A model generated the notes under the pieces. That model made no database searches. It had not been told where the DNA came from and saw nothing but the letters and a program-made list of their open reading frames with translations. Below are positions 53,954-63,265 of a DNA stretch of 64,000 nt, piece by piece; positions within the stretch are counted from its first letter, which is position 1, and each line of letters begins with the position of its first letter. Source of the DNA: Clostridia bacterium (GTDB lineage Bacteria > Bacillota > Clostridia > Lutisporales > Lutisporaceae); contig DASPIR010000023.1 in NCBI GenBank assembly GCA_035628995.1, positions 496,001 to 560,000 on the forward strand, given 5' to 3'. The position numbers and the translations under genes are program-made.

Positions 53954-54694
53954 TTACTGAAGCTTGTTATTGGATTCTACTCTACCGTCCCCAGCTTTGT
54001 TGTATTCATCTGCCAAATGTGTCATTCCCCTGAATAAAGAGTCATCCTCCAATACGCTGTAGAGGTGATAGCCCAGATCTTCCCTATCTTTCAGTATTTC
54101 TTCCAAGGTCTCCACTGTACCATAGTCTTTAAGAACATGAGCTCGATCTATTTGCGTCCTCAGCATCTGCTGAATCACAAGCTCGTGTTCCAGGTCATTT
54201 CTTAGAAAATCCCTCATGCTATAACGCCCTTCAACCTCATGCTTAATATATGAAAGCTCGTGTTGAGTAATCGGATGTGCAGTCGGTACACCACCCAATC
54301 TTGTTACTCTTTCACCAACTTCATCTATATGCTTTTTTGTAACTTCTATGTGTTCATTTAAGAGCTCATGCAAGCTCAAAAACGATTCAGTACCTTCACT
54401 TAGCCAATGATGCTTGTTGTACTGGTGCAAAGCTATAGTAAGCGCACACTGGTGATCATCAAGCATAAGTGCCATTTCATTGCGCACTTCATATGGCAAA
54501 TTTATTCCTGCTCCCTCTTTCTTTACTGTCCTGGGCTCCTGGCGGAGAATCATATTATGATTTGTTACATGTCCGGGCATCTTGGGATTGAATCCTGACT
54601 TATCCAGGTTAAAAGTACCTTTGAAATTGTTAGCATTATTCGTTGCTGCCCTGAGGTCTTCTGGTGTAGTGTATACAGCGCCTGTTTTATCCAT
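53954..54694 (-). CDS. Dps / ferritin-like protein with long N-terminal extension
   Basis: A 246-residue protein. Residues 1-65 are a polar extension (DKTGAVYTTPEDLRAATNNA). The core starts about 70 with LHQYNKHHWLSEGTESFLSLHE, EHIEVTKKHIDEVGERVTRL and GGVPTAHP, matching the Dps helices and ferroxidase-region signature. Dps proteins oxidise and store iron and protect DNA. Ordinary Dps is 150-180 residues, so this form is long at both ends. AAGGAG lies ten bases before the ATG at 54694; earlier in-frame starts up to 54763 lack one. Confidence 0.78.
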   Translation of the reverse strand: MDKTGAVYTTPEDLRAATNNANNFKGTFNLDKSGFNPKMPGHVTNHNMILRQEPRTVKKEGAGINLPYEVRNEMALMLDDHQCALTIALHQYNKHHWLSEGTESFLSLHELLNEHIEVTKKHIDEVGERVTRLGGVPTAHPITQHELSYIKHEVEGRYSMRDFLRNDLEHELVIQQMLRTQIDRAHVLKDYGTVETLEEILKDREDLGYHLYSVLEDDSLFRGMTHLADEYNKAGDGRVESNNKLQ

Positions 54695-54818
54695 TGCTAA
54701 AACACTCCTTTTCATACTTTTACAAGATTTAACAAGCATATTATGTCCATTAACAGCAATCATTTATGTATGTTTTGAATTGAAATTACTGGCCCATGGC
54801 CGATTTATAATTATACTC

Positions 54819-55598
54819 TTATCTTCTTATCTCACTTCCACCTACCCCGTAGGCAAAGAACCGTCCTCGCTTGAAAGGTTTCAAGGTCGGTATTGGCATT
54901 CCTTCACTAAACACAATAAAGTTGACTCCATTGATACCGCTTAGCTTATCATAAATAGCATCATCCAAGGAAAAAACTATTTTATAATCATTGCCGCTTT
55001 CCTTATTCGCTCTGTTAGCCAGAAAGCTGTTAAGTTCACTTGTAATATATTGTGTAAGCAAAGCTTTTCTATCCTTTGATTCAAGACCAATATCCCCGGC
55101 CCTAACCCATATCCCGTTATGAATGTCATAAATCTGGTCGGACAAGGTAAACATGTAGCTCTTTCCCCTGTATTGTATTACATATTCCTTTTCCCCTGCC
55201 GAATCATAGGAATACCAATTATCATCAGCATCAGCTATCATAAGCCTGTCATAGCAGATTACAGCTTTCATAGGTATGAATCTCTTTAACTCTTTCTGCT
55301 TATCGGTATCGTTTATACTGAGGTTCCTAAAAAATAATCGGTAAAACCATTTAACAGCTTCTTCTTTATCAACAGCCACATTTCCACTGTCCTCCAATCC
55401 AACTCCATAACCCGTTCCCTGATTCAGAAGCATATCTCTGGAGTTGTAGGCCCTGTAACTTGCAGCCGCATTAGCTCCGGCATCCAGAGCTCTCTTGTAC
55501 CGCTCGGACATAATGTCTATATTGTCTGCTCCCTTTCCTATAAAAAATAAGCTCCAGGCACAAAACAGGAAAATAAGACTCCAGAAAAATGATTTCAT
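54819..55598 (-). CDS. Tad-cluster membrane-anchored protein (TadE/TadG-like, unclassified)
   Basis: 259 residues. One N-terminal hydrophobic helix (about 4-22: SFFWSLIFLFCAWSLFFIG) is followed by a large outward-facing domain with ALDAGANAAASYRAYNSRDM, RFIPMKAVICYDRLMIADAD and a C-terminal half ending GRFFAYGVGGSEIRR. The architecture, a single N-terminal anchor plus an extracytoplasmic domain, is that of minor Tad pseudopilins, but no motif proves it. It is the last gene of the operon, 23 bases after the preceding gene. Confidence 0.6.
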   Translation of the reverse strand: MKSFFWSLIFLFCAWSLFFIGKGADNIDIMSERYKRALDAGANAAASYRAYNSRDMLLNQGTGYGVGLEDSGNVAVDKEEAVKWFYRLFFRNLSINDTDKQKELKRFIPMKAVICYDRLMIADADDNWYSYDSAGEKEYVIQYRGKSYMFTLSDQIYDIHNGIWVRAGDIGLESKDRKALLTQYITSELNSFLANRANKESGNDYKIVFSLDDAIYDKLSGINGVNFIVFSEGMPIPTLKPFKRGRFFAYGVGGSEIRR

Positions 55599-55621: not shown

Positions 55622-56068
55622 TTATTGTATATACACCGATGCTTTGGCGAAATACCTGATATCCGTCTCAACCCCCGACTTGGTGCCAAAAGGTGTAACC
55701 TCATACAACCGTCCTAAGGGGTGCTCATTCTTACTTTCAACATATATATTTATAATATCGTAACCTTCATACCGCAATTTTTTGTTCACAACCGCCATAC
55801 CGTCTATAATCTCTGGAATATCACTTGCACCAGTAAATTTTTCAGCAGTCACATTGATTTCAAATTCGCCGTACTTATAAAGCTTATTTTCCATCTCATC
55901 ATAGACAGAGTTATATAAGACGCCTTTCTTAGCAGCTACCTGGGTGTACTGATATACAATATTCTCAACTGCCTGCTGTCTTATTTTAAAGTCTCTGTCC
56001 AGGACAGCATGAAATGAATACCACATGAAGACTGGTATTACTAAAAGAGATGCCCAGAATTTTTCCAT
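55622..56068 (-). CDS. Tad-cluster small anchored protein, MEKFWA type, copy 2
   Basis: 148 residues: MEKFWASLLVIPVFMWYSFH is a hydrophobic N-terminal anchor with only a short cytoplasmic start. It is followed by VENIVYQYTQVAAKKGVLYN and a domain ending YFAKASVYIQ. It shares its first six residues with the gene upstream. The structure resembles a TadE-like pseudopilin, but no class III leader cleavage site (G/XXXXE) is evident. Confidence 0.65.
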   Translation of the reverse strand: MEKFWASLLVIPVFMWYSFHAVLDRDFKIRQQAVENIVYQYTQVAAKKGVLYNSVYDEMENKLYKYGEFEINVTAEKFTGASDIPEIIDGMAVVNKKLRYEGYDIINIYVESKNEHPLGRLYEVTPFGTKSGVETDIRYFAKASVYIQ

Positions 56069-56144
56069 ATATTAATTCTCCTTAATTTTGATAAGTATCA
56101 CCACTAAGAGCCTCTACCTCAGTAACTTTGATCCTTATTAATTG

Positions 56145-56546
56145 CTAATCGGGAACATAGCTAAAATTTATGCTTGTGAGATTTCCCGCTTCATCTCTTT
56201 TGGGTGTTTTAAGAAACATACATGTCACATCTTTAAGCTGATCTTCTATATTATTAGTATCCTCTTTATATGTTTTTTCATCATCTTCAGTTTTTACTGT
56301 AATGCTTACTTCATTACCAGCCTTGCTGCAATATGTTTCAACTGTATATTTTACGCTACTAGCACTAACCAAAGAAGGTGATGTATCCTCTCCCATCTCT
56401 GACTTAACTGCAGAGAGCGTCTGATTTGCAGTCTCAGCCATCGCTGCTTGTGAATCCTTTTGAGGAATATATACTTGATTTACATACATGAGTCCTGCTG
56501 CTGCAACTACCACGAATATAAGTATTGCCGCCCAGAATTTCTCCAT
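56145..56546 (-). CDS. Tad-cluster small anchored protein, MEKFWA type, copy 1
   Basis: 133 residues. MEKFWAAILIFVVVAAAGLM forms the anchor; the rest is hydrophilic and outward-facing (AETANQTLSAVKSEMGED, VETYCSKAGNEVSITVK, NLTSINFSYVPD). The size and anchor suit a pilin-like or pseudopilin subunit. It follows the TadC-like gene by 22 bases. It is the most pilin-like gene in the operon by position and size, but classical Flp motifs are absent. Confidence 0.65.
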   Translation of the reverse strand: MEKFWAAILIFVVVAAAGLMYVNQVYIPQKDSQAAMAETANQTLSAVKSEMGEDTSPSLVSASSVKYTVETYCSKAGNEVSITVKTEDDEKTYKEDTNNIEDQLKDVTCMFLKTPKRDEAGNLTSINFSYVPD

Positions 56547-56568: not shown

Positions 56569-57729
56569 CTATTTTATAAAATTCATAGGGTTAGAAAGCG
56601 CCGACAGACTATATGAAAAATATACCATTGCCATAAACATTATCAGTACTACCGGTACCATGGCGATTACCTGCTTTGACTTCCTCCTTTTTATACTCTT
56701 GATTTCGAGCCATTTTAGCTGGTTCAGAGCCATTTCATCAATGTTGTCCACCATATTTAGGAGTCCCGTGCTCATAGAAAGCCGCATAGCCTCCAACAGT
56801 TCATAAAGCTCCTGATTTTCCACTCTTTGCAGCAAACTGTCAAAGGACGCCTCCCCCTTGCCGCTTTTTATACTGTTCAATGCTTCGTTTATAATCGGTC
56901 TATAGATATCTGATATTGCCAAAATATTAGAGAGCACGTTTTTTATATTGAAGGGAGGCATTCTCCCAAATATAGAAAAAACATAAATGTAGTTCAATAT
57001 CTCCCAATCCCTTTTATCTTCAATAAGCATCAACTTTATATTGCCAATAATATTCGGCATGAAATATAGTATTATAGCTGCCAATATGGCTGTAAAATAT
57101 CTAGTGTAGTCCGTTTCTATTGTCCGTATCCTTATAAGCTTTTTGTACATCCTCTTAGCTGTAACACCAGCATCCACTTCAAGGTCAGTCCACTTATTGC
57201 CTATCTGAGCCTCCAGGTACTCAATGTACATCTGAGAATTATTTTTATTGGCAAGCTCTTTAAGTGTGACTTTCTCCCTGGGGAGGCAGCTATTAATATA
57301 GCTGAATATCTCATTTTCAAGCTTCAAGCCCTCCGCATCTGCCTTAACTGCTATATCTATCAAGGTCTTTTCTATGTTTAAATCGTTTATTATTCCATCA
57401 TGAAGCATAAAGATATTTGTGGTTTGTATGCTTATAAAGAATGCGAGACCTATTATAAATAACGCTGCCTTGACTAAATAAAAACCTTCAACAGAAATCC
57501 TCAATCCCGAATCAACTATAAGCTCTTCGGTATTTCTGTACCTCTTGCTCTTATATCTTGGCATAAGGGGCAGCAGCCTGCTAATGCTCTTTAAATAGCT
57601 CGACCTCGCATAATCCGCCCTATATAACCTCTTTATCTTCTGATATCTGCAATATTGATGAGCAAACACAATAATTGCTATTATCAACAGAGCAAGTCCA
57701 AAAGCTTGAATTAATACGAAGTATAGCAT
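56569..57729 (-). CDS. tadC: TadC-like type II secretion F-family membrane protein
   Basis: 386 residues. Helices lie near 5-25, 85-105, 212-235 and 360-382, with two cytoplasmic domains between. The RYTRYF-like stretch before the third helix, ALNSIKSGKGEASFDSLLQR and LRLSMSTGLLNMVDNIDEMA give the layout of a T2SF platform protein, and LEIKSIKRRKSKQVIAMVPV leads into the last helix as in TadB/TadC. Sequence divergence is strong. It sits directly after the TadB-like gene. Confidence 0.7.
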   Translation of the reverse strand: MLYFVLIQAFGLALLIIAIIVFAHQYCRYQKIKRLYRADYARSSYLKSISRLLPLMPRYKSKRYRNTEELIVDSGLRISVEGFYLVKAALFIIGLAFFISIQTTNIFMLHDGIINDLNIEKTLIDIAVKADAEGLKLENEIFSYINSCLPREKVTLKELANKNNSQMYIEYLEAQIGNKWTDLEVDAGVTAKRMYKKLIRIRTIETDYTRYFTAILAAIILYFMPNIIGNIKLMLIEDKRDWEILNYIYVFSIFGRMPPFNIKNVLSNILAISDIYRPIINEALNSIKSGKGEASFDSLLQRVENQELYELLEAMRLSMSTGLLNMVDNIDEMALNQLKWLEIKSIKRRKSKQVIAMVPVVLIMFMAMVYFSYSLSALSNPMNFIK

Positions 57730-57773: not shown

Positions 57774-58658
57774 TCAGTTTTGCAGCTTTCTCATCCAATA
57801 GATAAATAGTGCTCCGAGGTCGCTTATTAGCAGCATTATCGCAATCAGGCTTTCCGCTTGAATACTGCCGTAAATATCACCAATATTAATGTCAATAAGC
57901 AGACTGGTATTATACCATTTGGTAATTGGAATAACCATGAGTGGAGCAAAGAAGACAAATATCTGCATTCCTAATAATTCAGCATCATTATATCCCTGTT
58001 CAATATTAAGAAAGTTGACTATATTGGTCAGCCTCTTCAGGTTGCTGGAAATCACGTCACTGTTCAGTGCCTTATCGCTGCTGTCTGAAACCGTCCCCCC
58101 ATTTTCCTTGGCAAACAAAATAAGCTGGCATAGCATCTTCAGCCAGATAGTGGGCATTCGATGCTCCAGCTCTTCCATATGTCTTTCATAATCAACCTTA
58201 AGCAGGGCTTCTCTGATTCTTAAGACATATATTCTATTGCTTTTGGGGCATCGGGAAATAGTATCCTCCAGTGCAGGCATTATATTTCCTTTGTAATGAT
58301 TATAGTAATGTGTGAGCTTCTTCAATGTATTAGGAAAGTCTTTCTTAATCCTTTTTTCATATAACTCAAAATATGACTGCTCGCACAGATAAACGAATAT
58401 CAATGTGGAGAGAACACACAGCACTTTATGATACCAAAGACCGTTGAAGGTGTTATATGCAAATATAAAATATAATACTCCCAGCGCTGTTAGTGCAGAA
58501 AGCAGCACAAAACTTGTCCCATAATTCTGCATCGGTGTCTTTTGATTTATAAGAGTCAGCCGTCTATTCAACTTTGAAAGCAAGCTGTTGGAAAAGCTTT
58601 GTCTGTTAAAACTGCTAGAATTTGTTCTGCTGTGTATATTCCAAATAATATGGGTCAC
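57774..58658 (-). CDS. tadB: TadB-like inner-membrane platform protein
   Basis: 294 residues. Four membrane segments are seen (about 47-67, 75-92, 228-250, 268-288). The cytoplasmic stretch between includes FPNTLKKLTHYYNHYKGNIM, ALEDTISRCPKSNRIYVLRI and FAKENGGTVSDSSDKAL, the pattern of T2SF/TadB platforms. Start GTG overlaps the TadA stop by four bases, so the two are coupled. Confidence 0.72.
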   Translation of the reverse strand: MTHIIWNIHSRTNSSSFNRQSFSNSLLSKLNRRLTLINQKTPMQNYGTSFVLLSALTALGVLYFIFAYNTFNGLWYHKVLCVLSTLIFVYLCEQSYFELYEKRIKKDFPNTLKKLTHYYNHYKGNIMPALEDTISRCPKSNRIYVLRIREALLKVDYERHMEELEHRMPTIWLKMLCQLILFAKENGGTVSDSSDKALNSDVISSNLKRLTNIVNFLNIEQGYNDAELLGMQIFVFFAPLMVIPITKWYNTSLLIDINIGDIYGSIQAESLIAIMLLISDLGALFIYWMRKLQN

Positions 58659-60394
58659 CCCCTTGCATATTCAGGTATATCCTTGCCTGTATCCTGCTCT
58701 ATCAAGCTTATAAGACCCTTCACATACTTCCATGATTCAGTGCCTTTTCTTGCCTTTCCTACCATTCTCTCAGAGGGATAATTGATAAACCTCGCCTCCC
58801 CATCCGACCTTTGCATTATTGTATTCAATCTGAACATATTATATGGATTACGTTGTATCTGCTGGATATAATACAGCTTCTGCAACAGTTCATTATCTGC
58901 TTCCATACTATAATCAGAGTCACTTGAAGACGCTACTAATGGCACAATTTCGACTACTTTAGTTATCATTATCCGGCCATCAATTATCTCATGTTGAAAA
59001 ATCATATTAATGTAGTGAATTATATCCATAACAGCACTTTGCTCTGAAAAATAACGACCTGTTCCAATTAGCATATTTTTTAGACGAGGCACTGTAGTCT
59101 CCGGATTGGTTATATGCGTTGTGAACCATGCTGCAACTGAAACAGACTGCACTAACTGGATAAACGCAAATAGTGCTTTCCCATCCCTGACCTCTCCGAT
59201 ATTAGCCACATCTACTGACATTCGGAGCAGTGTTTTTACCACATCCAGAAGGTCCTTGTCGTTTATGGCCTGACCCTCGACAATTCTCTTTAAGGGATAC
59301 TTCTCCATGACATGCTGCTCAAAATAATCTTCAACAGTACCAATATGAAGGGAATCATCCAGCAATTCATACATCACATTCATGGTCGTAGTCTTGCCTG
59401 TACCAAGCCCTCCTTGAAGACATATGCTTTCTCCTGATTTAACTAAAGCAATAATGAGCTTCCTAAGCTTGTCCATAGTTATCAAATCTTTAAAATCTGT
59501 ATTCCTTTGATTGAAGACCCTTATACATAGGTTTCGTGCTGAAAAATAAGGCTTCTGGGTGACCGTGATCCTTGCCCCATCCCCTCTGTGGCATAGTATT
59601 TCCGGGTGACTTACATCCAACTGGGGACAATGCTTTTCAAAGCTTATAGCCCTATCCTGTATTATCCTTGCTTCACTTTCGCTTATATGAAGAAAGCTAA
59701 GCCATATCTTGTTTCCACACCAGCAGTATATATATTTGCCATTATTGGAAAAACCCACTTCATTAATATCTGAATATGCCAACATATCTATGTGTTTGAG
59801 ACCGAAAATTTCCTCATATAACCTCTGTGTGATAATTTCTATCTTGTCTGTGAAAGTAAGTATATAGTTCTCACAGTTGTATATATACTCAATATCATCT
59901 CCGCTATATTCATATCTATTGCTTTCATATTCCTCAGACTCTCTTGTTTTGCTGCAGCATTGGTATTTGGCAATCAGGCTTTTAAAGGCTCCATCTCTGC
60001 CATTGCTTTCTATTATTCTATTCTTGTATAGTATAATTTCGAATTTTTCTCTTGCTGTAAGATTAATTGGATCCTTGAAAGGCATAATGTAATCTATAAG
60101 GCCGCTTGTCTCTTCAATGCTGATTCCATCTGATATGCATACATCCTCCAGCTCACCGCTCTGGCTCTCCATATAAATATCAAATCCAGTAAGAATACTA
60201 TTCTTTATATGAGACTTAATAATATCTCTGGCCTCTGGCAGCCCTGATGTTGACTTTTCTTTGTATTCTCTGAGCAGAGCTACTATTTTCCTCTCCTGTT
60301 CGTCAACCGGATCAGAATTAATGAAGTTATTGATATATTTTTCAATATGCAGATGTAACGAGTCAATAATTAGCTGGTTCTTTAAATCCAACAC
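58655..60394 (-). CDS. tadA: TadA/CpaF-type secretion ATPase
   Basis: 579 residues, the motor of the system. The C-terminal 260 residues are a VirB11/CpaF ATPase: ARNLCIRVFNQRNTDF before the P-loop, Walker A GGLGTGKTT (328-336), DSLHIGTVEDYFEQHV, Walker B ANIGEVRDGKALFAFIQLVQ and the arginine/His region TTHITNPETTVPRL. The N-terminal 270 residues are longer and less conserved than in ordinary CpaF (about 450-500 residues). It lies between the second ParA-like gene and tadB. Confidence 0.88.
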   Translation of the reverse strand: MLDLKNQLIIDSLHLHIEKYINNFINSDPVDEQERKIVALLREYKEKSTSGLPEARDIIKSHIKNSILTGFDIYMESQSGELEDVCISDGISIEETSGLIDYIMPFKDPINLTAREKFEIILYKNRIIESNGRDGAFKSLIAKYQCCSKTRESEEYESNRYEYSGDDIEYIYNCENYILTFTDKIEIITQRLYEEIFGLKHIDMLAYSDINEVGFSNNGKYIYCWCGNKIWLSFLHISESEARIIQDRAISFEKHCPQLDVSHPEILCHRGDGARITVTQKPYFSARNLCIRVFNQRNTDFKDLITMDKLRKLIIALVKSGESICLQGGLGTGKTTTMNVMYELLDDSLHIGTVEDYFEQHVMEKYPLKRIVEGQAINDKDLLDVVKTLLRMSVDVANIGEVRDGKALFAFIQLVQSVSVAAWFTTHITNPETTVPRLKNMLIGTGRYFSEQSAVMDIIHYINMIFQHEIIDGRIMITKVVEIVPLVASSSDSDYSMEADNELLQKLYYIQQIQRNPYNMFRLNTIMQRSDGEARFINYPSERMVGKARKGTESWKYVKGLISLIEQDTGKDIPEYARG

Positions 60395-60405
60395 TTCACC
60401 TCCAG

Positions 60406-61257
60406 TTAGAATAGGCTGCTTCGAAGAAGTCTTTTGAAAATGCCCCCATTTTTTATGCTATTAATAGTATTTCTTTCCATATTTAGTGAATCAATCAAGA
60501 AACCGCAAATATCAACTAATTGCTTCACATACCCATTTTTCTCCCGCTTTATCTCCTTCATAAGAAAAGAGTAAAAATCATTATCTGCACAGCAAGAGTT
60601 TAAAACATCACCATCATAGTTCAATCCGAAGGTTTTAGATAATAAATATTTACTCTCGAACTTTCCAATTGCCCTGCTTGTCTCCCAGCCATCATATAGC
60701 TTATTTACTACACTGACTGTCTTTTCATTTGTGAAATAATCAAGAACCTCTCTCATCCCAGGATATTGATACAGTTCATCCATTATTATTTCATTAGGAG
60801 TAAAAACTGCAATGATGCTATCAGCGCGATCCAGATAAAGCCTATTTTCCTCTCTGACTCCTGTATCCATATCAGTAATTACAATATCAAAACCCTCCAG
60901 GCATCTGTCTAGGAAGAGTCTGTCAAAATCGTTATTCTCTCTGGTAATCTCCTTGTTAAACCTTGAGCCCGCTATCATGTATAAGCCTGCATTCACCTGT
61001 GTGGCATAGGTTTGAATATGCTCTGTCCTTATCCCTGTATTGAATATTTTCAAGTTATCCATTGAGTATTTTATCTCTATATCCTTCTCCACATATTTTT
61101 CCATGTGGCTGGTAGAATTGCTCTTGTTTACAATCAGCACCTTCTTACCTGAAAGATGCTGCATTCCAAAGCCCAGCGCGCAGGCTAATGTGGAGCATCC
61201 CTCACCATGCAGCACAGGAGACCAGATGCATATAAGCTTCCCTTTGGAACCTCGCAT
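60406..61257 (-). CDS. MinD/ParA-like protein with degenerate P-loop (TadZ/CpaE type)
   Basis: 283 residues. The SIMIBI fold is recognised from KLICIWSPVLHGEGCSTLAC, FDIVITDMDTGVREENRLYL and ADSIIAVFTPNEIIMDELYQ. The nucleotide loop reads HGEGCST: the Lys of GKT is replaced by Cys, a deviation also known in CpaE/TadZ proteins. ATG at 61257 follows AAGGAG by eight bases. It probably localises the secretion machine and may bind but not efficiently hydrolyse ATP. It follows the SAF-domain gene. Confidence 0.72.
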   Translation of the reverse strand: MRGSKGKLICIWSPVLHGEGCSTLACALGFGMQHLSGKKVLIVNKSNSTSHMEKYVEKDIEIKYSMDNLKIFNTGIRTEHIQTYATQVNAGLYMIAGSRFNKEITRENNDFDRLFLDRCLEGFDIVITDMDTGVREENRLYLDRADSIIAVFTPNEIIMDELYQYPGMREVLDYFTNEKTVSVVNKLYDGWETSRAIGKFESKYLLSKTFGLNYDGDVLNSCCADNDFYSFLMKEIKREKNGYVKQLVDICGFLIDSLNMERNTINSIKNGGIFKRLLRSSLF

Positions 61258-61262
61258 ATAAT

Positions 61263-61958
61263 TCACTCCTTCATTTTACTCTTATCATATAATGGGATAT
61301 ATGTAACCCCACTTGCTACCTGTGAGTCATCAATATACTGTACTACCATGAGTATTCCTTCCGTTGCAGCTTCTTTGAGGAATTCCTGTTCCATCTGATT
61401 CATATAAAAAGATAATAGATTAGCATTCCGCGAAACCACGACAGCCTTTGAAATTACTACACAATCCTCTTCACCTTTTACAAAGAGTTTGACATCTATG
61501 GCACTGCCCTCTGCAACTGCGGCAGGTATAGCCCCTTCTGCGAAGTTATGCTCAATTAGCCTATCGCCCTCCTCGTAGGATGCGCTTTCAGCCATTAAGT
61601 CCAAAGCATTCAAGAATTCTTTCTCTGATAGTTCTCGTTTAAGTCTCATATTATTAAGCTTTGAAAGGCTTGTAATTGCTCCCTTTGAAGCCAATTCCGC
61701 AGGTACCTCCACCAGCTCTGCTTTACTTACATCCATTACCTCACCTTGCCTCATGCTGAGTTTTGCACGAGCAATTACAATGGTTCTGCTTTGGGATGTA
61801 TTGCTTTTTCCGCTTGACGAATTTGCGGCTTCTGCCGACATTATATTCCTATAGAAAAAATAACCAGCAGAAATGATAAAAACTAAGCATAGTAAGCATA
61901 TTGTTATAAATGCGCCTCTCTTTATTGCATAAGCTTTTATTCTCTTGTTATAAGCCAA
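61263..61958 (-). CDS. SAF-domain protein (CpaB/RcpC-like)
   Basis: 231 residues: a basic cytoplasmic start (1-14), one membrane helix (15-37) and an outward domain. The SAF part is seen in TIVIARAKLSMRQGEVMDVS, KAELVEVPAELASKGAITSL and NMRLKRELSEKEFL, then IPAAVAEGSAIDVKLFV. CpaB/RcpC proteins assist Flp pilus assembly at the cell wall. The start is TTG after GAGGGTGG. It lies 15 bases after the first ParA-like gene. Confidence 0.75.
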   Translation of the reverse strand: MAYNKRIKAYAIKRGAFITICLLCLVFIISAGYFFYRNIMSAEAANSSSGKSNTSQSRTIVIARAKLSMRQGEVMDVSKAELVEVPAELASKGAITSLSKLNNMRLKRELSEKEFLNALDLMAESASYEEGDRLIEHNFAEGAIPAAVAEGSAIDVKLFVKGEEDCVVISKAVVVSRNANLLSFYMNQMEQEFLKEAATEGILMVVQYIDDSQVASGVTYIPLYDKSKMKE

Positions 61959-61972
61959 TGAATCCCACCCTC

Positions 61973-63265
61973 TTACCTTCCAAAAATACCAATTGAAAAT
62001 CCGTTCTTGCTTTGTCTCGTGCAGAGTTTTTCCAATAAAACATCCATATCTCTTGTAAATTCTTTGTACTCTTCTCCTGCTGCCTTGTATGGCACAATGC
62101 CTGTATGCATCACTTCCCAGCCAAGATAACCGCAGCTGCTTATAAAAGCTATATCTTTAAAGGGTATGCCGGAGCTTTTAAGCTCATTGTATATAAACTT
62201 GTGACTGGAAGATTTCACATTTGTGTTGTTAATGACCGCAAGTGTCTTTTCTGGTACAAAATCATCCTTTAGCTCTTCCAGCATGTTCATGTTCATATGG
62301 TAGTGCATTATATCGCAGTCAAAAATCAGCAAATCATATATAGAGCTTTTTACCGCTAGTCTTGTCAAAGCTGATAAACCTGTCCTTGTGTCAATAATCG
62401 TGATATCTGATTTAGTACGGATGCCATATAGAAGTTTAAGGAAATCATCGCCGCTGATTTCCTTTTCATCACCAAGCTTTCCGGTGATAATACTCAGGTT
62501 TTTTCTTTTACAGCAGTTATCCAGTATATCCTTATGCATATTGTTTTGCAGGGTGAAATCAAGCAGATCATAATAAATGTCATCAATATCGAAAAACAGA
62601 TTTGCAGAATAACCCCTGTCAATATTAATAAGGCTGGTGGCATACCCTCGTTTAGAGAGGCAATAGCCCAAATTCCATGCTGTATGGGATTTACCCGTGG
62701 CTTGATTTGATACTATAGAAATGACTAGCTTCTCAACAGGAGCTCTCTTATAGTTGCCTGCCTTCAAAAAAGTCTTGAAGCCAGAATTGAAGAGTAAGCT
62801 GCCGCTTAAGAAGGAACTGCTTTCTTTGGCATTCTGATTCTTATAACTAAAATACTGCTCATTGTCAAAACTGCTCTGAAGGTAACCGAAGGCCATTTCC
62901 TTGCCGGCAGGTCTGAATATAAGTCTTTCAAGGTCTCTGGAGGTTATTTCATCTCCCACGTAGAAATCATAAACTCCATGGCCAATCAAAAACCTTATAA
63001 AGTTGTCGCAAATACTGTCATATTCCCCATATATAAATACTACCCTCTGCGTTTTAAATTCACCTGATGTCAGTAGTTCTATCAAATGTTCCATTTCTTC
63101 ACTGCCAGTGAGTTCTTTTGATAGTAGTACCAAGTCATATTGGAATGAGCCTGCAGTATCTATCAGCGACTTTTTATCCTTTACTATATCAACTGCTGTT
63201 ATTCCAGGCAAATAGTTTAGATATTCTTCAATATCCTCATAATTAATCGCAGATAGCAATCTCAT
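61973..63265 (-). CDS. TadZ/CpaE-like protein: receiver-like domain plus P-loop ATPase
   Basis: 430 residues; first gene of the Tad-like operon. The N-terminal 120 residues look like a response-regulator fold without clear phosphorylation residues (FQYDLVLLSKEL, VVFIYGEYDS). An MinD/ParA domain follows with SNQATGKSHTAWNLGYCLSK (P-loop Lys192 kept), INIDRGYSANLFFDIDD and ITIIDTRTGLSALTRLAVKS. The architecture is that of TadZ/CpaE. It is likely to set the polar or septal location of the apparatus. GGGGGATATAT precedes the ATG. Confidence 0.75.
   Translation of the reverse strand: MRLLSAINYEDIEEYLNYLPGITAVDIVKDKKSLIDTAGSFQYDLVLLSKELTGSEEMEHLIELLTSGEFKTQRVVFIYGEYDSICDNFIRFLIGHGVYDFYVGDEITSRDLERLIFRPAGKEMAFGYLQSSFDNEQYFSYKNQNAKESSSFLSGSLLFNSGFKTFLKAGNYKRAPVEKLVISIVSNQATGKSHTAWNLGYCLSKRGYATSLINIDRGYSANLFFDIDDIYYDLLDFTLQNNMHKDILDNCCKRKNLSIITGKLGDEKEISGDDFLKLLYGIRTKSDITIIDTRTGLSALTRLAVKSSIYDLLIFDCDIMHYHMNMNMLEELKDDFVPEKTLAVINNTNVKSSSHKFIYNELKSSGIPFKDIAFISSCGYLGWEVMHTGIVPYKAAGEEYKEFTRDMDVLLEKLCTRQSKNGFSIGIFGR

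Follow-up and report, generated by a model that had tools for sequence, protein, structure and literature searches.

The window analysed here is a stretch of 64,000 nucleotides (nt) from contig DASPIR010000023.1 of a Clostridia bacterium of the family Lutisporaceae (assembly GCA_035628995.1, positions 496,001 to 560,000, read on the forward strand). On its minus strand it carries a nine-gene, divergent Tad-like (type IVc) operon, in which genes 7, 8 and 9 encode the proteins P1, P2 and P3. All three are preceded by a ribosome-binding site, begin directly at a membrane helix, and have no class III signal peptide. The operon seems to begin inside the window: the open reading frames (ORFs) beyond its first gene and past the window end lie on the opposite strand. 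The genes are, in order of transcription:

61973..63265, minus strand: CpaE/TadZ-like ATPase, operon gene 1 (MinD/CpaE-type matches below the cut-off; synteny)
61263..61958, minus strand: CpaB/RcpC-like protein (TIGR03177 CpaB, E 6.7e-5, under the curated cut-off; synteny)
60406..61266, minus strand: second MinD/CpaE-like protein (weak MinD match, E 0.0068; synteny)
58655..60394, minus strand: divergent TadA-like assembly ATPase (PF00437, 57.5 bits, over the cut-off; Walker A motif GGLGTGKT intact)
57774..58658, minus strand: putative TadB-like platform protein (assigned from position and membrane segments; no Pfam match)
56569..57729, minus strand: putative TadC-like platform protein (assigned from position and membrane segments; no Pfam match)
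56145..56546, minus strand: P1, starts with MEKFWA, 133 residues, MEKFWAAILIFVVV; proposed leaderless subunit of the major-pilin type
55622..56068, minus strand: P2, starts with MEKFWA, 148 residues, MEKFWASLLVIPVF; proposed leaderless subunit of the pseudopilin type
54819..55598, minus strand: P3, starts with MKSFFW, MKSFFWSLIFLF; proposed leaderless, larger subunit of the pseudopilin type, last gene

The PF00437 match and the intact Walker A motif are the features of a TadA-type ATPase. All model matches of the CpaB/RcpC- and CpaE/TadZ-type partners were below the curated cut-offs, and the two multi-helix proteins without model match are found at the place expected for TadB and TadC. The operon contains no further pilin candidate besides P1–P3, and a prepilin peptidase (TadV) gene is absent from the window locus.

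The start codons of P1 and P2 are sound: each window copy closely follows a Shine-Dalgarno-like sequence (GGGAG and AAGGAG), and on going upstream in frame a stop codon is reached before any other start. Among the related genomes described below, an in-frame upstream start was absent from all 14 P1 copies, from 8 of 14 P2 copies, and from 8 of 12 P3 copies. Where an extended start exists (P2 in 6/14, P3 in 4/12), the extra residues in front of the anchor contain no K/R-G leader motif.

Leadered proteins of the same genome served as controls. A canonical Tad locus at about 71–78 kb of contig C10 (L050) gave Pfam matches to Flp_Fap, TadE, and Tad, and its proteins carry KKG leaders, namely Flp (..KDKKGQGMVEYALI), TadE (KKGQSMVEMALI), and a TadG-like protein (KDKKGSSSII). 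PF04964, PF07811, and PF13400 all match in this canonical locus and do not match P1–P3. A type IVa pilus locus on contig C23 encodes pilins of the KKGFTIIEIM type, and the sole match to the peptidase family PF01478 over the cut-off in the genome (C23:123876) lies in this locus, some 428 kb away from the operon in the window. At about 120.9–124.3 kb of C23 (L051 7937-8341 and 10667-11317), the type IVa peptidase seems to be split into an A24_N_bact ORF and an A24 catalytic ORF, with three ORFs between them. In two related loci, L008 and L009, the canonical Tad locus with its leadered proteins begins about 0.8 and 1.9 kb beyond the leaderless P3; in the window genome it is on another contig. A weak second P1 match in the window genome, on contig C21 (E 0.002), was not accepted as a paralogue; it sits in what seems to be an operon of the Rnf type.

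The original prediction had pointed to P1 and P2 as two neighbouring genes that share a MEKFWA start and then diverge, and exactly this is found: 16 of the first 18 nt are identical, the likeness ends sharply thereafter, and the next 42 nt agree at 11 positions, which is about chance. MEKFWA is the sole first-six-residue string that occurs more than once among the 97 window ORFs of at least 100 residues (201 of at least 60), in a mechanical ORF list that includes non-genes. When the P1-family and P2-family profiles were compared, only the first 22 columns aligned (probability 84). P3, with its MKSFFW start, is a third neighbour of the same build that the original prediction had missed.

Of 22 genomes from this order, 14 contain P1, and these 14 also contain P2. 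The gene order tadC-P1-P2-P3 is constant in all 14; in G012 a contig end truncates P3, and in G008 part of P3 is masked. Among ten loci of the species collection, six are complete with nine genes, a seventh has all nine but with its two outermost genes truncated, and contig ends interrupt the remaining three. P1 starts with MEKFW in six genomes, with MEKFL in one, and with MDSFW or MDNFW in seven, and P2 starts with MEKFW in seven, MHNFW in three, MQNFW in two, and MQNFF and MQNFL (the latter from a GTG start) in one each. The MDSFW/MDNFW forms of P1 and the MHNFW, MQNFW, MQNFF, and MQNFL forms of P2 belong to sister genera. P3 starts with MKSFFW, MKIFFW, MKWFFW, and similar sequences; in alignment A3, the L003 protein was given an ATA start codon. 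F4 is invariant in P1 and P2 alike (14/14), and W5 is present in 13 P1 and 12 P2 proteins. A conserved MEKFW in homologues had been anticipated, and the N-terminus is indeed kept, but the exact string is confined to close relatives: it occurs in both genes in 6 of the 14 genomes, all from the genus of the window or a single sister genus.

This narrow distribution and the near identity of the first 18 nt would agree with a recent event of copying or gene conversion between the neighbours, by which the exact MEKFWA identity would reflect lineage history only. We consider this possible, although we lean somewhat against it as the whole explanation, as F4 and W5 are kept in both families over 14 genomes despite different flanking residues, and as neighbouring paralogues in distant operons also have common starts (L096, L130, and L131). 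Such an event would in any case be compatible with a pilin-type function of P1–P3.

Within the genus and the nearest sister genus, P1 is 90–97% identical to the window copy over residues 1–30 and 13–34% identical from residue 61 to the end. For P2, the identity from residue 61 on is 53–68% (genus and one sister genus). The P1 pattern of a conserved helix and a hypervariable head is as would be expected for an exposed main subunit. Two local features were noted at these loci. In L005 (7700-8000), a gap of about 300 nt between P1 and P2 contains short repeat-like DNA with proline/serine-rich mechanical ORFs, which the window lacks. Downstream of P3, a Dps/ferritin-like gene (window positions 53954-54763) encodes a protein whose ferritin domain starts only at residue 101; such a gene was not found adjoining P3 in the other loci examined (tblastn, E 1e-3).

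Among 391 genomes of the class, the P2 profile detected further operons in 5 genomes from other families, and the P3 profile in 10. These operons of other Bacillota also contain small proteins that begin at a membrane helix and are placed after the platform genes, with starts such as MDKVITEIIIG, MEKVIATIVII, MENSLKAILIG, MDNASKALIMAG, and MEDNIQIFLG, and the last one is often of the MKITD type. MEK(V/I)IA, MDNASKA, MENSLKA, and MED.. are the start types in these more distant operons. Neighbouring paralogues with the same start recur here, as MDNASKALIMAG is found twice in L096, and MEKV/MEKA twice in both L130 and L131. A profile of the MEKVIATIV proteins (A4) gave matches at E 0.01 in 14 of the 391 class genomes and in 5 of 398 phylum genomes. 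The matches were strong in nine genomes of the class (G284, G123, G332, G349, G127, G033, G190, G250, and G036) and in four of another class (G524, G577, G601, and G671). In 11 of these 13 genomes the protein is a leaderless M(E/D)K(V/I/A) type, and in two (G033 and G036) it has a leader. In alignments A4 and A7 the L062 member was taken from an internal MEK start, the L064 member has its longest start in A4 and the next one in A7, and TTG is the start codon in two rows of A7, one being the second copy of G190 and the other that of G250. Two very large leaderless N-anchored proteins of 1262 and 510 residues (MKDTISIIFASIF.. in L091 3775-7563 and MKDNLSMVILMIL.. in L090 8099-9631) stand in the pilin-like row and are possibly tip-type subunits.

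The two leadered proteins indicate where a leader would stand. They read ..KFSKPALRSRKGG-ISTVIAVLV in G033 (..RSRKGG/ISTVIAVL, the slash following the GG) and MFEKKINLKSLLTSKKGG-LSSIIAIVV in G036 (..TSKKGG/LSSIIAIV), and they resemble the leaderless proteins (M-EKVIATIV) far into the protein. In both cases, Met1 of the leaderless proteins is aligned with the residue right after the GG, and it would correspond to position +1 with peptidase cleavage behind the second G, or to +2 with cleavage behind the first. Both genomes have leadered and leaderless subunits in one operon, as the neighbours at the P2 and P3 places are leaderless, and both have a peptidase over the cut-off. P1 is connected to these orthologues by a short profile chain. 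The P1 family (A2) aligned with the MDNASKA/MENSLKA family (A5) with a probability of 95 (E 3e-8), over the full length and with M1 on M1; A5 aligned with the MEKVIA family (A7) with a probability of 96 (E 5e-9), and the direct comparison of P1 with A7 gave 67 (E 5e-5). Three control comparisons of unrelated pairs from the same operons gave 1.0–3.3. That P1 is "born mature" is suggested by this chain, whereas for P2 and P3 it is suggested by place, build, and helix start.

The alignment also bears on the earlier idea that the common N-terminus is a sorting or assembly signal replacing the class III leader. There is no class III leader and the N-terminus is kept in homologues, in agreement with that idea, but MEKFW as a string is not the signal, and the shared start is not a leader substitute because leadered orthologues align the residue right after KGG with Met1. 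The shared start would rather be the pilin helix than a new sorting tag, and the coding sequence apparently sets in at the position at which a processed pilin would start. The exact MEKFWA string is a matter of the history of this lineage, superimposed on a pilin-type helix start that is conserved.

Sequence comparison shows the operon, its leaderless starts and their conservation and, for P1, the profile chain to leadered orthologues. It is probable that P1–P3 serve as pilin-type subunits in a divergent Tad-like filament machine and are translated leaderless from about residue 1 of the processed pilin. We infer topology, polymerisation, peptidase independence, and roles as follows. Each subunit would be inserted via its N-terminal helix, with the N-terminus inside and the head outside, and would be ready for polymerisation without prepilin peptidase. 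The TadA-like ATPase and the TadB/TadC-like platform would then assemble a filament or a short pseudopilus, with P1 as main subunit and P2 and P3 as priming or tip subunits. P1 and P2 could begin alike on account of a shared helix-packing or platform-docking face that was kept alike or copied between neighbours.

Predicted structures are consistent with this proposal. AlphaFold2 models P1 with a helix from residue 2 to 51 followed by a small head with strands (predicted local distance difference test score, pLDDT, 73), and P2 with a helix from 2 to 48 and a head with strands (pLDDT 89). The long N-terminal helix and strand-bearing head in both models fit the build of type IV pilins and pseudopilins, though no fold match reached significance. 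A match of P2 to the type IV-like pilin 5g24 (VIA; Z 5.4, 110 residues aligned, 3.7 A) was not counted, as unrelated folds reach 6.5. One could argue that signal peptidase I removes the hydrophobic start as a Sec signal peptide, so that the proteins are released and their start is just a similar export signal, which the small residues within the P1 helix (VVVAAAG) would permit. This is very improbable in our view, as the conservation of P1 continues past the helix (Y26, P28, Q29, Q33, M36, and A37 are invariant), the predicted helix runs on to residues 48–51, and the leadered orthologues retain the helix behind the KGG motif. In addition, an acidic second residue does not resemble the n-region of a signal peptide.

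An acidic residue 2 is a common feature of the leaderless P1-type proteins. D or E was found there in all 40 leaderless rows of A2, A5, and A7, and the two leadered rows have S. In P3 this residue is K (12/12), and in P2 it is mixed (E in seven, Q in four, and H in three of 14). Over 36 loci, D or E at residue 2 was counted in 56 of 110 N-anchored cluster proteins versus 7 of 72 other N-anchored proteins and 40 of 375 other genes, all from the same loci, with rows that are related by descent and thus not independent events. L135 contributed no row, and 20 of 130 rows were dropped since no helix was called in the first 14 residues: P1 of L003-L006 and P3 of L003 (the start rule picked an internal start), P2 of the window, L003-L008, and L010 (hydropathy threshold), L062 (an extended start was picked), the leadered L064 and L132 proteins, and one more each of L064, L095, L132, and L133. 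As 12 of these 20 (four P1, seven P2, and L062) begin with MEK at the homology-supported start, their omission lowered the count; the other eight do not begin so. Among the rows retained, the extended start of L094 8071 is questionable. Met is retained before Glu or Asp. The leaderless N-terminus would therefore be Met1 beside an acid, which may have a role of its own.

The aligned TadA-like ATPases, from 25 such operons and with one of them partial, all have an intact Walker A motif. An apparent loss of the motif in several TadA relatives, based on a regular-expression search, was rejected, as the alignment shows a motif that is one residue longer but intact. In the TadA tree, three well-supported groups stand apart from canonical TadA, with long branches between the groups that were flagged by the program, and the window TadA is separated from the canonical TadA of its own genome with a support of 100/100. 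The missing leader across a whole type of Tad-like operon is the notable point, and the two leadered orthologues mark where the leader was or could be. Because the two leadered rows fall within one otherwise leaderless group, the tree alone does not settle leader loss versus gain, although the loss from ordinary prepilins would be the easier change.

That position of the leadered rows is one of several observations that weigh against the proposal. Most genomes with leaderless operons keep a prepilin peptidase somewhere, as PF01478 was over the cut-off in 27 of the 29 genomes with such operons and in 6 of 9 of a second set (two genomes re-checked). G329 had no PF01478 match, and G250 and G264 had none over the cut-off. 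The lack in G329 and G250 was withdrawn as support, as leadered N_methyl pilins are present in both, and it may be an assembly gap. Only G264 has neither a peptidase nor an N_methyl pilin over the cut-off, and it has an A24 match below the cut-off. Among the operons whose surroundings were read, a peptidase gene adjoins the leaderless operon only in G336, where the operon end encodes an A24 peptidase and a DUF6382+FHA protein (L094 6023-6436 and 6586-8049). The charge distribution does not clearly force an N-inside topology: the N-tail is more positive than the post-helix flank in P1 (11/14), P3 (11/12), and the leaderless MEKVIA-type proteins (13/13), but only in 4 of 14 P2, 1 of 13 MDNASKA-type, and 2 of 8 A6 proteins. 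The match of P2 to its distant place-mates (A6) was weak (42 over 77 columns), P1–P3 lack the Glu of classical pilins at mature position 5, no Pfam or NCBIfam pilin model was over the cut-off for them, Foldseek/PDB fold searches with P1 and P2 gave nothing significant, and the VIA listing for P1 contained no pilin-like fold.

The missing leader, E5, pilin model match, and fold match would also be expected if P1–P3 were ordinary signal-anchored parts that never polymerise, with the filament subunit encoded elsewhere or the machine operating without a filament. We regard this as unlikely, as P1 shows the variability of a main subunit, leadered orthologues of the wider P1 family contain the prepilin-type KGG motif, and the window operon offers no alternative pilin candidate.

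Canonical Tad/Flp (type IVc) systems, such as the C10 locus, share with the window the TadA-type gene, the putative CpaE/TadZ-, CpaB/RcpC-, and TadB/TadC-type genes, and the small N-anchored subunits. They differ by the KKG leaders and the Flp_Fap, TadE, and Tad matches, neither of which the window subunits have, and the window TadA is deeply separate and no peptidase adjoins. Type IV pilins are defined by the class III signal peptide in reviews (PMC10191384, PMC6916266), and together with E5 this distinguishes them from P1–P3. The Myxococcus Kil system (PMC12075869) likewise combines a Tad-type machine with several pilin-type subunits, but its tip pilins are reported to have a predicted peptidase site after the leader. 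The nearest prior statement that we found concerns Tad-like loci of Clostridia without any apparent prepilin-signal protein, in which the tad genes stand far from their counterparts in the rest of the Clostridia (Imam et al., 2011; PMC3244431). By description, these Gram-positive loci resemble the window in the missing prepilin motif, and the section of that study on these loci names no leaderless pilin, whereas P1–P3 are proposed here. A description of leaderless pilins in such loci was not found in the open-licence literature searched.

More tentatively, and at close to even balance, we suggest that a widespread Bacillota branch of Tad-like systems builds its filaments from born-mature pilins, whose start codon coincides with the residue behind the cleavage site, with the acidic residue 2 replacing Glu5 and the processed N-terminus, so that the peptidase step, which is regarded as general among type IV filaments, is dispensed with. 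It is by the leader and the corresponding peptidase that type IV pilins are identified, named, and looked for, and none of the leaderless subunits scanned was over a Pfam or NCBIfam cut-off. If many Tad-like operons use leaderless subunits, present tools overlook their pilins. If our proposal is true, the view that processing is obligatory for assembly would become directly testable, and the leadered and leaderless orthologues would represent a natural experiment.
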